Part shown: positions 4,503 through 52,659 of the stretch, one piece after another
Numbering within the stretch: the stretch's first letter is position 1
How the letters are laid out: every line of letters starts with the position of its first letter
Assembly: GCA_937899415.1 (NCBI GenBank)
Contig: CALBPI010000070.1
Span: forward strand, 1 to 64,000
Direction: 5' to 3'
From: an uncultured Gammaproteobacteria bacterium
GTDB lineage: Bacteria > Pseudomonadota > Gammaproteobacteria > Steroidobacterales > Woeseiaceae
Length of the DNA stretch: 64,000 bases
Program-made: the position numbers and the translations under genes
The notes under the pieces: generated by a model
Seen by the model: the letters and a program-made list of their open reading frames with translations, nothing else
Told to the model about the DNA's origin: nothing
Databases searched by the model: none

Positions 4503-5117
4503 CTAGAACGTATCCGTCAGTGGCGGCTTCGGATACGGCTCAATGTTCTGATGGAGTATCGCGTAGGAGATACCGACCACCCAGGTGACGTAGACGAAGC
4601 CGACGATGCGCTCGTAGGCGCCGATCCAGCTTTCGTTGACGAGCAGGATCAGGGGCACTAGCAGGAACCAGAGTCCAAGGCAGACGGCTGAGAACAGGCC
4701 GATGGACTTGGAGCGGCGCGAGAGGCCGGGTTGCAACATGCCCATGGCGACGCCCGTCAGGCAGGCGGCGATCCAGAGTGGATCATTGGCTTCAGGGCCC
4801 ATCAGTCGCTCCGGGTCGGCCTCTTTGTAGAACCCGGCGATGTACCAGACAGCGAGGCCGCTGAATACGAGCACGATGCGCGCCCAGGGCCACATCCTGC
4901 CGCGGTCGATGCGGCGGAAACCCAGCGCCATGGCGAAGTGTGCGGCGCCGAAGAGTGCGAGTCCGAGCCCGTGCAGGTCACCGTACGTGCCTTGGCTGAG
5001 CTGGCTAATCGGTGTGCGGATCGGGTCCTGACCGCTCAAGATGAGTACCAGGACATGCAACATGGGTGTCAACGCGCCCGCGTAGAGCGCGATTCGAAAA
5101 TAGTAGGTGCCGCTCAC
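4503..5117 (-). CDS. DUF998-family membrane protein
   Basis: This 204-residue protein has six predicted membrane helices and the hallmark of DUF998 proteins near residues 35-42, here PISQLSQG (family form PxSxLS). The biochemical role of the family is not known. The start is a GTG whose codon overlaps the stop of the upstream secreted-protein gene (GTGA at 5114-5117), so the two are coupled. The C-terminus is short and cytoplasmic or periplasmic (NIEPYPKPPLTDTF). Confidence 0.78.
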   Translation of the reverse strand: MSGTYYFRIALYAGALTPMLHVLVLILSGQDPIRTPISQLSQGTYGDLHGLGLALFGAAHFAMALGFRRIDRGRMWPWARIVLVFSGLAVWYIAGFYKEADPERLMGPEANDPLWIAACLTGVAMGMLQPGLSRRSKSIGLFSAVCLGLWFLLVPLILLVNESWIGAYERIVGFVYVTWVVGISYAILHQNIEPYPKPPLTDTF

Positions 5118-5674
5118 TGTTCAAGCTCGCTTGTTTGAGGCGCGTAGGGTGTGGCGATGATGTGATACACGTCGAACCATGATTCGCCGTCATCAAAAGT
5201 CCACTGCTGCGCCCAGGTCCAGCCTTCCTCATCGGGCGGGTAAAACACGATACGTCGTGGCGGGTCAGGCACGGGTTTCACGATGTCCATGATGATCCGG
5301 CCGTCGTCTGCCTGCCTGGCCGTGATGTGTTGCAGGCCCTTCTGACCTGCAGCGGCCCAGACGATTTCCCAGGTCTTGGTGTCGGGGTTGTAGGTGCGCA
5401 GGTTTGTGCCCCAGCCACCGCCGTTGGGCATCCAGAAATCCTGGATGGCTGTGCCGTCACCGATGCACTTGAAGATCCAGCGTGCGCCCTTGCCTTCAAT
5501 CCACCCACTACCGTCGCGTGCGAACGACTCGTCGACGATCTTCCAGTCGCCCACGTACCGACCGAACTGGGCCCTGTCGCCCTCAAGGCAGGCGTTGTCT
5601 GTGTCTGTCTCAGCGTCGGCCCAGGCAGGCGCAGCCCACATCAGGCAGGCGGCTAAGGCAATGGCGTATTTCAT
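5114..5674 (-). CDS. Secreted DUF1579-like protein
   Basis: The 186-residue protein has a good signal peptide (MKYAIALAACLMWAAPAWA) with cleavage before DAETD. The mature part opens with a Trp/Gly-rich block (FGRYVGDWKIVDESF) and alternates strands with many Trp and Asp residues, as in small lipocalin-like beta-barrels of the DUF1579 type that occur alone or next to membrane proteins. No catalytic motif is seen. It is the first gene of a two-gene unit and overlaps the DUF998 gene by 4 bases, so the two may work together at the envelope. Confidence 0.65.
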   Translation of the reverse strand: MKYAIALAACLMWAAPAWADAETDTDNACLEGDRAQFGRYVGDWKIVDESFARDGSGWIEGKGARWIFKCIGDGTAIQDFWMPNGGGWGTNLRTYNPDTKTWEIVWAAAGQKGLQHITARQADDGRIIMDIVKPVPDPPRRIVFYPPDEEGWTWAQQWTFDDGESWFDVYHIIATPYAPQTSELEQ

Positions 5675-46160: not shown

Positions 46161-47183
46161 TCAGTGTTGCGGCATCGCCGCTCTCGCAGAAAGCAGTCGG
46201 TCCTCGGGCTCGCTCTGGATACCCAGGTTAATACGCGCGAGGCGGCGTGCCAGCTTCGGGTCGGGCAACACATCCAGGTAGAAGCGCGTCATCTCGCGCG
46301 AGTGAGCCCAGTCCTCTTCAGCGATCCAGGCGCGAAACTGCTGGTCTGCGTGTGCAATGGCAGTCTCAAGATCAGGCTCGTGACCGGTCGGGATGCCGAC
46401 AATCATCTTGCGCACCGACAACGCCAGCGCCTCGGGCCCCTCGGCGAGAACGCGTGTCGCATCGTCAATCCGGTCCTGGGCAAGCAGTACATCGACGAGT
46501 GCTGCGCGCACTTGCGTGCGGTCGGCGAGCGCCAACGACTCCGTGTAATGCGCCACAGCGGCTTCGGGATCCGATGTTGCGGTGGCGTCGCCGGCAACGC
46601 TCAGCGTCCAGGCGAGCACTTCGGCGTCCGCCCGTTCACGTTTCGTGCCCAGCAAGACCGCTTCGATCTGGCGCTGCGCCCTAAGCGTGTCGCCTCGCGC
46701 GATATCAACGCGGGCGTGACAGGTCGTCGCGACCAGCAGGCTTACGTGACGCAGTTCCTGGCACGCTGTGGCCGCATCCTCGTCCGCACCCTGGACCAGG
46801 TACAGGGACGCGAGCTGCAGCCACGCCTCATCATTGTCGTAATCGCGGGAGATCACGTCGCGGAGCAGTGTCTCCGCCAGCGTAAAATCGTGGCGTGCCT
46901 GTGACACAACCGCGGCGTCGATCAACTCAAGCAGCGTCGGGTCGCCAAGGTGGGGCTCAAGCTCTGCCCAGGCGGCCTCAAGATGCGCGTCGTCGCCTGT
47001 GACGCGAAAGGCGGTGAGGCGTGACTGGATGCGCGTGTGATCGGGCTCCGGATGCGCGTCGTGATGCGCGCCATCGTGGGTGTTAGCGTGTTTGAGATCG
47101 TGGGCGCTGGCAGGCAGTGTCGCTGCGGCCAGGAGCAGTCCCGCGCACAGCGCGACAGCCCCGCGGTAATTCAGTGTGTTCAT
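46161..47183 (-). CDS. Exported TPR-like protein with His-rich N-terminus
   Basis: The 340-residue protein has a signal peptide (LCAGLLLAAATLPASA) and begins its mature chain with a His/Asp-rich stretch (HDLKHANTHDGAHHDAHPE, residues about 28-46) that could bind zinc, copper or nickel. The rest is helical repeats of TPR type (AETLLRDVISRDYDNDEAWLQLASLY shortened; AVAHYTESLALADRTQVRAAL). It is the third gene of the DUF4331 operon, after a strong intergenic hairpin. A metal-handling or complex-building role is inferred from composition and context only. Confidence 0.75.
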   Translation of the reverse strand: MNTLNYRGAVALCAGLLLAAATLPASAHDLKHANTHDGAHHDAHPEPDHTRIQSRLTAFRVTGDDAHLEAAWAELEPHLGDPTLLELIDAAVVSQARHDFTLAETLLRDVISRDYDNDEAWLQLASLYLVQGADEDAATACQELRHVSLLVATTCHARVDIARGDTLRAQRQIEAVLLGTKRERADAEVLAWTLSVAGDATATSDPEAAVAHYTESLALADRTQVRAALVDVLLAQDRIDDATRVLAEGPEALALSVRKMIVGIPTGHEPDLETAIAHADQQFRAWIAEEDWAHSREMTRFYLDVLPDPKLARRLARINLGIQSEPEDRLLSARAAMPQH

Positions 47184-47254: not shown

Positions 47255-47770
47255 TTACTCCGCGAGCAAGTCCGCGAAGTCGTCTTCGTCTGCGTCCTGA
47301 GCAAACTCGACGGCGTTGATCAACGTGGGTGTTTCCACGTCCGTTGATGTGAAGGTGTCACGCGCGAACTGCTGCAGCGAGCGCTGTTCGGCAACCACGC
47401 TCAGCAGAAAGTCGACACGGGCCACCTGACCGAGATCGTCGGTGGCAACCACCGAAACCGTGGTCTCGCCGGTGACATCAAGCTGTGGCGTCACTACGAG
47501 AGAACCAGAACCCCGCTCATTGCGAACCAGGAGTCCGTTTTCGGGGACGATTTCCGGTCGGTCGGCGCTCGCCACGACCGTCACGCTGCTCGGCCGCTCG
47601 TCTGCGACAGAGAAGCTGATGGGCGTGCTCGCGCCGTTGGCATCGATGCTCTGATCCGCGATGTCGCTGATCATTGGCGCAGCGTTGACGGCCGTGGCGT
47701 CTCCGGAGCCGCCGCCGCACGCAGCGGTCAGCGACACCAGCGAGGCCACTAAGAGGAATTTCATTTTCAT
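47255..47770 (-). CDS. Small Ig-like lipoprotein
   Basis: The 171-residue lipoprotein has a lipobox (SLTAAC, Cys18) followed by a Gly/Ser spacer. Residues about 32-128 look like one bacterial Ig/cadherin-like sandwich (ISDIADQSIDANGASTPISF, then TVSVVATDDLGQVARVDFLL). The last 40 residues are acidic (FAQDADEDDFADLLAE). It lies 21 bases after the DUF4331 gene in the same operon, so a surface partner of that protein is likely. Confidence 0.78.
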   Translation of the reverse strand: MKMKFLLVASLVSLTAACGGGSGDATAVNAAPMISDIADQSIDANGASTPISFSVADERPSSVTVVASADRPEIVPENGLLVRNERGSGSLVVTPQLDVTGETTVSVVATDDLGQVARVDFLLSVVAEQRSLQQFARDTFTSTDVETPTLINAVEFAQDADEDDFADLLAE

Positions 47771-47791: not shown

Positions 47792-49417
47792 TCAGTTCTT
47801 GGGCTGCGGCAGCGGCGCGCCGACGGGGGAGCCCGGGTAGGGCGTCAGCAGGTACGGGAAGCTCGCATCGAGGTCCGTAGCCTGCAGCGGGGCGCCATCG
47901 GTGAACGAGACGGTACCGACCGGCGCGTCCGCAGGATCGCAAAGGCCGAGGTTGACGCCTGTGCCGTTCTCACCGAGAGGCAGGTCGTGGCAGAGCGCAC
48001 CCATGACCACGCGCAGTGCGATGTCGACGCTGTCGTCACCCGGGCGGCGGCCGTTGGGGAACCCAGCCAGGTCGCCAGCGGCAACACCGAGCGGATGCTG
48101 TGCTTCACGAACGGTCGGCGCGATGGCCGTGTTCAGTCGGAGCATTTCTCCAGGCGCGACGTTGGCGGGCTGGTTCAGACCCGGGAAGCCTGTCAGGAAG
48201 GCGGTGACCAGGTCATTGCGCGGGAAATTCGAAGGCGCGAGGTTGTCGAAGGGGACGAACTCGGGAATGGCTTCACCCAGGATCTCGTTGACGGCGTCGC
48301 GGAACAGCGCGTCGAGGATCAGCGGCAGGCCGGGGTTCGTCACGAAGGGCAGGAATTGATCGTCGTCCTTGGGCTCACTGGAGTTGAAGCGGTCCTTGCT
48401 TTCGAAGCCGACCACAAGCTCATTGACGAGCGGTGCGGACAGGCGCGACACCTGGGTCCAGGCGCCACCGCTGATTTCCGGTTTCAGGAACGTCGGCCGC
48501 GGGTTCAGAATATTGAGCTGGCGCAGGCTGGAGGTTGTCCACGCGCCGATCACGGATTCATCACCCTGTGTCAGGCAGTCCTCATGCAGCTCCAGCGCAA
48601 TCGAGGTGACGTTGTTGCGGGCCAGGATGTTGCGCTCCGGGTCTTGCGTGACGCCGCCGGGGAAGCCATCGCCGTCTCCAGCGCCGGCGCTGCTGTCACC
48701 TTCGATCGGAACGAAGTTCACGAGGTCGAAGACTTCGCCCAGGCTCAGCTTGAACGCTTCGTTGCGTTGGCCGACAAAGACGCGGCCGGGAATCGAGCAA
48801 CCCGGAACGCTGATGTCGTGTACGAAGCTGTCGGCGTAGGCGGTGTAGCCGCCAGGGCCGCCAAAGGTCTTCGTGCCCGAGTAGTCGAAGGGCTTGCCGA
48901 AAGCCTTGTCACCGGTTGCCACGTTGGTCGCCGTCCTGCGACGGCCACGACGACGATCACCTTCAATCAGTGTGACCGTGTAGGTCTCAACATGGTTCAG
49001 GCCCGGTGCACCGTTGGCGTCGATCGGTGCGATGTTGCGCAGGACACTGGAAATTTCTGTGCCATCAACATTGAGTCGAATCGGTCCGCCGGCGGGGAAG
49101 GCGTCTTTGAAGCGAAACTGGAAGGTCAGGTCTTCACGGCTGTCGCCATCATTGTCCACGTGGATTTCGTAGAGCGCCTGGCTGTCCAGCGGGAAGTAGT
49201 GGGGACCGCCGTAGGCGGCTTGCACGGGCAGGTAGTTCGCGATCAGGGTCACGAAGTCTTCGCGGCCCGGCTCGTAACTCTTGAACAGGTAGAAGTCGGT
49301 GCCGTCTGCCTGGGGGTACTTGGTGACAAACGGTGCCTCTCGGTGACTCGACGCCATCGCGGTGCAGGTTGCTGCGATCGCAATGACCGTGCCGAGGCAG
49401 GTCAGTGTGCGTTTCAT
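47792..49417 (-). CDS. DUF4331-family exported protein
   Basis: The 541-residue protein starts at ATG 49417, which gives a signal peptide (LGTVIAIAATCTAMA) and the family start SSHREAPFVTKYPQADGTDFYLFKSYEPGR (given here in two joined motifs, SSHREAP and ADGTDFYLF). Further conserved segments are ALYEIHVDNDGDSREDL, VFVGQRNEAFKLSLGEVFDLVN and ARNNVTSIALELHEDCL (parts). DUF4331 proteins are secreted, contain many Asp/Asn loops and probably bind calcium; no activity is established. It is the first gene of the operon driven by the minus-strand CGATCC-N18-TA promoter. Confidence 0.87.
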   Translation of the reverse strand: MKRTLTCLGTVIAIAATCTAMASSHREAPFVTKYPQADGTDFYLFKSYEPGREDFVTLIANYLPVQAAYGGPHYFPLDSQALYEIHVDNDGDSREDLTFQFRFKDAFPAGGPIRLNVDGTEISSVLRNIAPIDANGAPGLNHVETYTVTLIEGDRRRGRRRTATNVATGDKAFGKPFDYSGTKTFGGPGGYTAYADSFVHDISVPGCSIPGRVFVGQRNEAFKLSLGEVFDLVNFVPIEGDSSAGAGDGDGFPGGVTQDPERNILARNNVTSIALELHEDCLTQGDESVIGAWTTSSLRQLNILNPRPTFLKPEISGGAWTQVSRLSAPLVNELVVGFESKDRFNSSEPKDDDQFLPFVTNPGLPLILDALFRDAVNEILGEAIPEFVPFDNLAPSNFPRNDLVTAFLTGFPGLNQPANVAPGEMLRLNTAIAPTVREAQHPLGVAAGDLAGFPNGRRPGDDSVDIALRVVMGALCHDLPLGENGTGVNLGLCDPADAPVGTVSFTDGAPLQATDLDASFPYLLTPYPGSPVGAPLPQPKN

Positions 49418-49460: not shown

Positions 49461-49488
49461 GGTACGCAGCCGCCGCTAGACTGGATCG
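49461..49488 (-). promoter_or_regulatory. ECF-type promoter of the DUF4331 operon
   Basis: On the minus strand CGATCC (49483-49488) is followed by exactly 18 bases and then TACC (49461-49464), about 45 bases before the DUF4331 start. The spacer ends in GGCTGCG, the same seven bases as in the opposite promoter. The form is close to the TGATCC-N18-TA promoters of RpoE/ChrR-type (ECF11) sigma factors. Confidence 0.7.
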
Positions 49489-49535
49489 AAAAAATATCGT
49501 TCCGGATCAAAATTTTTTCGCGGGCACGACAATTT

Positions 49536-49565
49536 CGATCCAAACCAATCCAGGCTGCGTATCTA
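49536..49565 (+). promoter_or_regulatory. ECF-type promoter of the sigma-factor/cupin operon
   Basis: On the plus strand CGATCC (49536-49541) is followed by 18 bases ending GGCTGCG and then TATCTA (49560-49565), 47 bases before the sigma-factor start. It mirrors the minus-strand promoter of the DUF4331 operon, so the sigma factor most likely drives both its own gene and that operon. Confidence 0.7.
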
Positions 49566-49611
49566 CACAAAGCGCGGCAGTCCGTACGCATGCATTTGCT
49601 ATAGTCGCGGC

Positions 49612-50217
49612 ATGGACCAGCCCACGGTGCAAGACGGGTACAACGAGGCCGGCAGCGAGCTCGACACGCGGTGCGTGGCCTGGGTCACCGCGATGGCGGC
49701 GGGCGACGAGCAGGCTTTGGAGTCGCTCTACGACGCCACGCTGTCAAAGCTGTTTGGTGTCGCCCTGAGCATCGTGAGCGACCGCGCGCTGGCCGAGGAG
49801 GTGGTTACTGATGCTTACCACGCGGCGTGGACGAACGCTGGCAACTACGATGCCGCGCTGGGTCGTGTCATGACCTGGTTAGCCTCGATTTGTCGCAATC
49901 GTGCGCTCGACGCACTGCGGCGCGAAGCCTCTGCCGCGAGACGGCATGAGACCGCGGCTACATTGGAAATACCGGATGATGCGGCGGCACCAGAGCAACT
50001 GCTTTCGGTTCTTGAGGACGGCCACGAGATTCGCCGTCTCTTCGAGGCCCTGCCCGGCGACGACCGCCAGCTGATCGCGCTGGCTTATTTTCGCGGCTAC
50101 AGTCAACAGCAGATTGCCGAGCTGACGGCGTTACCGCTGGGGACCGTGAAATCAAGGATGCGGCGTGCCCTGTCTACGCTGGCGCGCGCGGCATCACCTG
50201 ACCTGGCTATGAGTTGA
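49612..50217 (+). CDS. ECF sigma factor, RpoE/ChrR (ECF11)-like
   Basis: The 201-residue protein has sigma region 2 (LESLYDATLSKLFGVAL, then AEEVVTDAYHAAWTNAGNYD, MTWLASICRNRALDALRR) and region 4 (LIALAYFRGYSQQQIAEL, then LPLGTVKSRMRRAL). The cupin protein gene follows after 7 bases, the pairing seen for ECF11-type factors such as Rhodobacter sphaeroides RpoE with ChrR, which answer to singlet oxygen. Its own promoter carries the CGATCC-N18-TA motif, indicating autoregulation. The signal here is not known. Confidence 0.88.
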   Translation: MDQPTVQDGYNEAGSELDTRCVAWVTAMAAGDEQALESLYDATLSKLFGVALSIVSDRALAEEVVTDAYHAAWTNAGNYDAALGRVMTWLASICRNRALDALRREASAARRHETAATLEIPDDAAAPEQLLSVLEDGHEIRRLFEALPGDDRQLIALAYFRGYSQQQIAELTALPLGTVKSRMRRALSTLARAASPDLAMS

Positions 50218-50224
50218 ACGAGAC

Positions 50225-50674
50225 GTGAGCGAACCTGACGACAAGCCTTTGCCCGCTGCGGTAGCCGGTGCCATCACCGATGCCATTGCGCCTGTCGTGC
50301 CTGACGCGCACGCGGCCGCGCGTATAAAGCGGCGCTTGTTGGAACGCGTGCGTGGTGACGACGCTGCCGCTGATCTCGTCACTGTGTCCGGTACGTCAGA
50401 CGACTGGATTGAGACCAGCCCCGGCAACCAGGTTAAGGTGCTTCGAAGCGATGATGAAAGCATGTCGATTCTCGTTCGACTCGAGCCTGGCACGACATTC
50501 CCCGCGCACTACCATCCCGTCGAAGAGGAAACCTACGTCGTGGAAGGGGAAACCTATTTTGGTGACATCCACCTCAAGGCGGGCGATTACCACGTAGCGC
50601 CCCAAGGAAGTTCGCACGGCGAGGTGCGCACCGAAACGGGTTGCGTCCTGTTGATCCGCAAGGGCCCCGACTAG
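50225..50674 (+). CDS. Cupin protein, ChrR-like anti-sigma partner
   Basis: The 149-residue protein starts at GTG 50225. Its C-terminal half is a ChrR-type cupin with the metal-binding pattern HYHPVEEETYVVEGE (two His and a Glu) and a later His in SSHGEV. The N-terminal 60 residues contain a helix RIKRRLLERV, like the linker before the cupin in ChrR, but the zinc-binding anti-sigma domain of ChrR (HxxxCxxC) is missing. It may still hold the sigma factor through that helix, or only sense a signal. Its stop overlaps the stop of the MscS-like gene on the other strand. Confidence 0.8.
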   Translation: MSEPDDKPLPAAVAGAITDAIAPVVPDAHAAARIKRRLLERVRGDDAAADLVTVSGTSDDWIETSPGNQVKVLRSDDESMSILVRLEPGTTFPAHYHPVEEETYVVEGETYFGDIHLKAGDYHVAPQGSSHGEVRTETGCVLLIRKGPD

Positions 50675-51900: not shown

Positions 51901-52659
51901 ATGAAACTGTTTCAATTCAAGGGCCGTCGACTGGCCAATGTGGCGGCCGTCATTGCCGTCGCGATCATCACCCTGCCGTCGGCCTCGGCCGACCGCACCT
52001 TCTTTGGCGGCGAGACCTACCGGATCACGATCACCAACCTGACCACGGGTCAGCCGTTCACGCCGCCCGTTATCGCTGTGCACAACCCGCGCGCCAACGT
52101 GTTCGCGCTGGGCACGCCGGCCAGCGAAGGCGTGCGTCAGATCGCCGAGAACGGCAACAACGCGCCGCTCGTCGCTGCGTTGTCGGCTAGCCCCGACGTC
52201 AGCGAAGTGATTGAAGGCACGGCGCCCATCGTGCCGGCGGCCAACCCGGGTGGTACGCCGTTCGACAGCCAGGCCACGTTCGAATTCACAACACAGACGC
52301 GTCGCACCCACATCTCGTTTGTCAGCATGCTGATCTGCACAAACGATGGCTTTACGGGCATCAACACGATTCGCCTGCCGCGAAACAGCACCACGATCCT
52401 CGCGCGCGGCTACGAGACGCGCACCGAGCAGAACACCGAGGATTTCGCGGACATCGTGCCGCCGTGCCAGGGCCTCATTGGCGTGTCGTCGGACGACGCA
52501 GGCACGGGTGAAAGCAACCCGGCGCTGGGTGAGAACGGCATCGTGATTCCGCACCAGGGTGTCGTGGGCGACAACGATCTCGTCTCGCGCGTCCACAACT
52601 GGGCTGATCCGGTCGCCAAGATCGTCATTGAGCGTGTTCGGTCTGATCGCCGCTACTGA
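51901..52659 (+). CDS. Secreted spondin-domain protein
   Basis: The 252-residue protein has a signal peptide (VAAVIAVAIITLPSASA). The mature chain fits the bacterial Spond_N type: TYRITITNLTTGQPFTPPVIAVHN, then ASEGVRQIAENGN, and HISFVSMLICTNDGFTGIN with paired cysteines (Cys at CTNDG and PPCQG). The fold binds metal and glycans in animals; the bacterial role is unknown. It is transcribed alone and ends in a strong terminator. Confidence 0.87.
   Translation: MKLFQFKGRRLANVAAVIAVAIITLPSASADRTFFGGETYRITITNLTTGQPFTPPVIAVHNPRANVFALGTPASEGVRQIAENGNNAPLVAALSASPDVSEVIEGTAPIVPAANPGGTPFDSQATFEFTTQTRRTHISFVSMLICTNDGFTGINTIRLPRNSTTILARGYETRTEQNTEDFADIVPPCQGLIGVSSDDAGTGESNPALGENGIVIPHQGVVGDNDLVSRVHNWADPVAKIVIERVRSDRRY

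Follow-up and report, generated by a model that had tools for sequence, protein, structure and literature searches.

Two described kinds of ECF sigma factor system come closest to the locus analysed here. In the ECF11 RpoE–ChrR systems, exemplified by Rhodobacter sphaeroides, PSPTO_1043 of Pseudomonas syringae and RpoE2 of Shewanella oneidensis, an autoregulated sigma gene is followed by a gene for a ChrR-type cupin, the regulon includes the phr/cfa photo-oxidative genes, and the promoters follow the consensus TGATCC-N16-CGTA, published from ChIP-Seq (PMC5507510) and from mapped transcription starts (PMC4336711). In the ECF18/ECF19 SigK–RskA systems, the sigma factor is paired with a membrane anti-sigma factor and serves a small regulon of exported proteins. 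We analysed a 64,000-nucleotide stretch of DNA (the window) in which a sigma–cupin operon and an operon headed by a DUF4331 gene diverge from a 195-base gap, and we found likenesses to both kinds of system. A gene order of sigma factor and then ChrR-type cupin, with apparent autoregulation, and sites of the form TCGATCC-N16-CGTA, which fit the GATCC and CGTA elements of the published consensus, recall ECF11; a best match to SigK and a small set of exported targets recall SigK–RskA.

Both strands of the gap carry CGATCC, exactly 18 bases and then TA, as a sequence-only reading of this DNA had reported: on the minus strand CGATCC lies at 49488–49483 and TA at 49464–49463, and on the plus strand CGATCC lies at 49536–49541 and TA at 49560–49561. 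Since GGCTGCG closes both spacers, each site can be written more precisely as TCGATCC-N16-CGTA (minus strand, 49489–49463; plus strand, 49535–49561). That reading had also drawn attention to the shared spacer end, which is present in both window sites; comparison of related loci indicated, however, that GGCTG is not kept in relatives and that CGTA alone is conserved. The minus-strand site supplies the candidate promoter of the DUF4331 operon (−35 CGATCC at 49483–49488, TCGATCC with 49489; −10 CGTA at 49463–49466, 16 bases after the −35), and the plus-strand site that of the sigma–cupin operon (−35 CGATCC at 49536–49541, TCGATCC with 49535; −10 CGTA at 49558–49561, from the pattern scan and the leave-one-out profile). 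From TA to the start codon there are 45 bases for DUF4331 (ATG at 49417) and 50 for sigma (ATG at 49612); counted from the −35 elements, the offsets are 72 and 77, with leave-one-out p values of 0.04 and 0.01, respectively. A minus-strand TGATCC at 49504–49509 was considered as a further promoter and rejected, as no CGTA lies 16 bases on.

Surveys of 60 relatives, 369 genomes of the class and 398 genomes of the phylum, sets that overlap slightly, found DUF4331 in 8, 31 and 22 of them, respectively, and we compared the window locus with the DUF4331 loci of these genomes. An ECF sigma gene, often divergent, lies near DUF4331 at 32 of 51 loci (fetched stretches of 3–11.5 kb), against a chance expectation of about 2 of 51 derived from the 13 ECF-like matches in the window genome (~0.04 per 11 kb). 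These linked sigma genes have a cupin or an RskA-type anti-sigma gene directly 3′, and a TPR gene usually lies 3′ of DUF4331. In an unbiased count of hexamer–gap–tetramer words, TGCATC(C)-N16-CGTA ranked first, with up to 18 of 54 upstream regions, at 14 loci; GCATCC-16-CGTA occurred in 17 of the 54, at 13 loci, where shuffling gave a maximum of 3–5. With a position weight matrix trained without the locus being tested and a threshold of p ≤ 0.02, the motif was recovered before 31 of the 47 DUF4331 genes and, for linked sigma genes, before 19 of 33; none of the 27 TPR and 8 lipoprotein genes had it. The family consensus is TGCATCC-N16-CGTAT, with a −35 of TGCATCC of which the window CGATCC is a variant; this is why the DUF4331-side site of the window scores no better than p = 0.04 when matched to the family profile.

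The closest orthologous locus is that of genome G023, whose sigma factor is 53% identical to that of the window. Its gap keeps the genes and both promoters, as TGCATCC-N16-CGTA at the same offsets of 72 and 77, and is otherwise diverged from the window gap. The sequence-only reading had named loss of the motifs from such gaps as evidence against it, and this comparison speaks for the motifs. The two promoters of a locus also tend to share their −35 variant (both have TCGATCC in the window, TGATCC in L079, ACATCC in L093 and TGCATCC in most other loci, with L077 and L082 as exceptions), which is what a single sigma factor reading both promoters would produce. Autoregulation is not universal, since the linked loci L080, L081, L087, L197, L200 and L206 have no recognizable sigma-side site. 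The order of targets can also shift: at L106, around 5096–5122 (G043:C80:9095–9121), TGCATCC-N16-CGTA faces not DUF4331 but a frame between DUF4331 and sigma, which looks like a TPR protein.

These comparisons bear on whether GC-rich DNA merely happens to hold two copies of CGATCC-N18-TA. Taken by itself the short pattern is weak evidence, with 4 matches to YGATCC-N18-TA in the window against 1.5 expected. GATCC-N16-CGTA, however, has 30 copies in the 3.94-Mb window genome, nearly all of them in sequence that a simple codon score marks as likely to be coding, and the density of the 28 others predicts about 0.0014 copies in the 195-base gap, both strands counted, where two are observed. Recovery of the motif by word-pair counting without prior knowledge and the retention of both sites, with unchanged offsets, in the G023 gap also speak against coincidence, and the orthologous conservation refutes it; we regard a chance origin as scarcely credible.

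Copies elsewhere are few. Scanning the whole window genome for TSSATCC-N16-CGTA yielded three sites, of which two are the gap pair and the third lies inside a reading frame of ~1000 codons or more. The sole two TGCATCC-N16-CGTA sites in about 4 Mb of G023 are the divergent DUF4331/sigma pair, and two of the three exact family sites in G054 are at the DUF4331/sigma locus. Tallies made by hand from the scan list gave 36 exact sites for the 19 genomes that have DUF4331. Of these, 19 belong to the DUF4331/sigma locus and 17 lie elsewhere (0.9 per genome); the 22 genomes lacking DUF4331 contain 33 (1.5 per genome). Because the off-locus count in DUF4331 genomes is no higher than this background, the sigma factor appears to act locally and mainly on one divergon, within a search by strict patterns that would miss degenerate promoters. 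Strong support for the earlier proposal, an autoregulated sigma factor that mainly serves a single operon, comes from synteny, from promoter pairs at kept offsets and from the almost complete lack of further sites in two genomes.

The sigma factor itself (49612–50217, plus strand, 201 aa) consists of sigma-70 regions 2 and 4 (Sigma70_r2 and Sigma70_r4_2) without other domains. Its best matches are to SigK (M. tuberculosis SigK, PDB 4nqw; NCBIfam PRK09646), although its score against the NCBIfam SigK model, 128 of 226 bits, is below the curated cut-off. In a tree of the sigma factors, RskA-linked members grouped together (98/88) and cupin-linked members did so weakly (71/72), with the window sigma among the latter; the analysis neither established nor rejected a union of the two (AU p 0.29). 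A contig scan for related ECFs returned distant ones only, in Microbacterium. On present evidence we file the window sigma under neither ECF11 nor ECF19, because its best match is SigK, the family −35 is TGCATCC, RskA_C proteins follow the sigma factor at sister loci, the cupin lacks HxxxCxxC and the tree neither unites nor separates the two groups. The likeness to RpoE/ChrR noted in the sequence-only reading stands for the promoter form and is not supported for the pair proper: the sigma factor scores better against SigK, the cupin has no zinc domain, no ChrR of the window genome or G023 exceeds the NCBIfam cut-off, and sister loci carry RskA-type proteins. Compared with ECF11, the −35 and the near-single-operon extent of the regulon also differ. 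Unlike SigK–RskA systems, the window has a soluble cupin as partner and no adjacent RskA.

Could the gap hold real ECF promoters that are read by another ECF sigma factor of the same cell, for example an ECF11 RpoE? GATCC-N16-CGTA does fit the published ECF11 consensus, and the window genome offers 13 ECF-like matches. Neither there nor in G023, however, did a ChrR-family anti-sigma factor exceed the NCBIfam cut-off. This speaks against recognition of the gap sites by a separate, canonical ECF11 system, and no canonical ECF11 pair was found. Moreover, the sites sit exactly in the gap of the sigma gene and accompany it in many genomes, and both genomes contain almost no other copies. We consider recognition by a different sigma factor quite unlikely.

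The presumed regulator of the sigma factor is a ChrR-type cupin (50225–50674, plus strand) of 149 aa, with a single Cys and a Cupin_7 match of 9e-20. All four metal ligands of ChrR, His, His, Glu and His at 141, 143, 147 and 177 (PMC6852236), are present at the ChrR spacing, as H, H, E and H at relative positions 0, 2, 6 and 36, and are conserved in nine of nine homologues. Unlike ChrR, the window cupin lacks the HxxxCxxC zinc anti-sigma domain; no upstream frame could encode it, the domain is absent from all nine homologues compared, and the NCBIfam ChrR model aligns over positions 106–191 only (24.6 bits; cut-off 124.5). A short helical N-terminus is predicted before the barrel: single-sequence structure prediction gave two helices and then a beta barrel, weakly (mean pLDDT 52), and the second helix (P-D-A-H-A-A-A-R-I-K-R-R-L-L-E-R-V) in the model appears, by eye, to resemble helix 4 of class I anti-sigma domains. 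An RskA-type membrane anti-sigma gene replaces the cupin at L043, L044, L081, L083–L087, L090, L102, L106, L195–L198, L200–L204 and L206. The window genome also encodes a tandem double Cupin_7 protein with a stronger Cupin_7 match than the window cupin (C60:166846–167475; L209, L211), and G023 (C23) has a similar double match.

Close to the sigma gene lies a further promoter-like element. The extended −10-like TGCTATAGT (49597–49605, plus strand), six bases before the sigma ATG, scores highest of the extended −10 candidates over the 140 bases upstream, with p about 0.02 in the window and in G023 each; it sits within TTTGCTATAGTC-CGGCATG, which is identical in G023. At L078 and L080, too, a similar element lies before the sigma gene. 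TGCTATAGT could be a housekeeping promoter giving a leaderless or near-leaderless basal transcript. Were it the main source of sigma, DUF4331 would be the only true target and the plus-strand ECF site minor. The perfect conservation of TGCTATAGT in G023 and the higher frequency of the motif before DUF4331 genes than before sigma genes fit that arrangement, but in the window the sigma-side site outscores the DUF4331-side site and its offset is kept in G023, and we judge it improbable, if less so than recognition by another sigma factor.

We favour the explanation that the divergent pair are the autoregulated promoters of this ECF sigma factor, with the cupin as its putative regulator and the DUF4331 operon as main target, and hold it with considerable confidence. 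Related bacteria carry the same promoter pair, and from this recurrence it is very probable that the sigma factor activates itself and DUF4331 and little else. All support for the circuit is computational; computed directly were the two sites and how well they are kept, the linkage of the genes and the rarity of further sites. We infer recognition by this sigma factor, anti-sigma action of the cupin, a basal promoter and a signal, which would combine as follows. The conserved extended −10 would supply basal sigma, which the cupin, occupying the position of ChrR or RskA, would keep inactive. A cytoplasmic signal at the HxHxxxE...H metal site of the cupin would release it. Free sigma with RNA polymerase would then read TCGATCC-N16-CGTA rightwards into its own gene and the cupin gene, amplifying itself, and leftwards into DUF4331, lipoprotein and TPR genes, an exported operon that would be essentially the whole regulon. 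The earlier description of a 'defined stress regulon' is not supported.

More tentatively, and with somewhat less than even confidence, the loci together may represent a dedicated one-operon ECF circuit with DUF4331 as conserved output and two exchanged regulators: either the membrane protein RskA, responding to an envelope signal, or a soluble cupin that lacks the zinc anti-sigma domain and acts via its short helical N-terminus, a form for which we found no counterpart among described ECF regulators. For the exported DUF4331 family the locus supplies a conserved and testable regulator, and the sigma factor or its signal offers a route to learning the role of DUF4331. Membrane RskA and soluble cupin, acting on sigma factors with nearly the same promoter and the same target, form a natural comparison.

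The DUF4331 protein (47792–49417, minus strand, 541 aa) matches PF14224 over its full length (6e-130), with an N-terminal export signal followed by ASSHREAP and with invariant columns in the alignment. Its profile had no match in the PDB, and a single-sequence structure prediction was unusable (pLDDT 33.6). We found no paper naming DUF4331 in the literature searched, outside which lay the 2021 ECF reclassification (Casas-Pastor et al.), and its linkage to sigma genes may have been noticed before. Two genes on the same strand are likely to share its operon: one for a small putative lipoprotein (47255–47770) with a lipobox-like LTAAC, also found 3′ of DUF4331 at the G023 locus and at several others, and one for an exported TPR protein (46161–47183), a neighbour kept in most loci, without an ECF-type motif of its own. 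Metal binding by the TPR protein, suggested by its His-rich start, was rejected, as homologues lack that start. On the sigma side of the gap, shortly downstream, a gene for a Spondin-domain secreted protein (51901–52659) has no CGTA-type motif before it. Elsewhere in the window genome, CGCGATCC-N16-CGTAT (L143; C7:7797–7821, minus strand) lies ~20 bases ahead of where an exported TPR protein probably starts, and the sigma factor may have a second target there.
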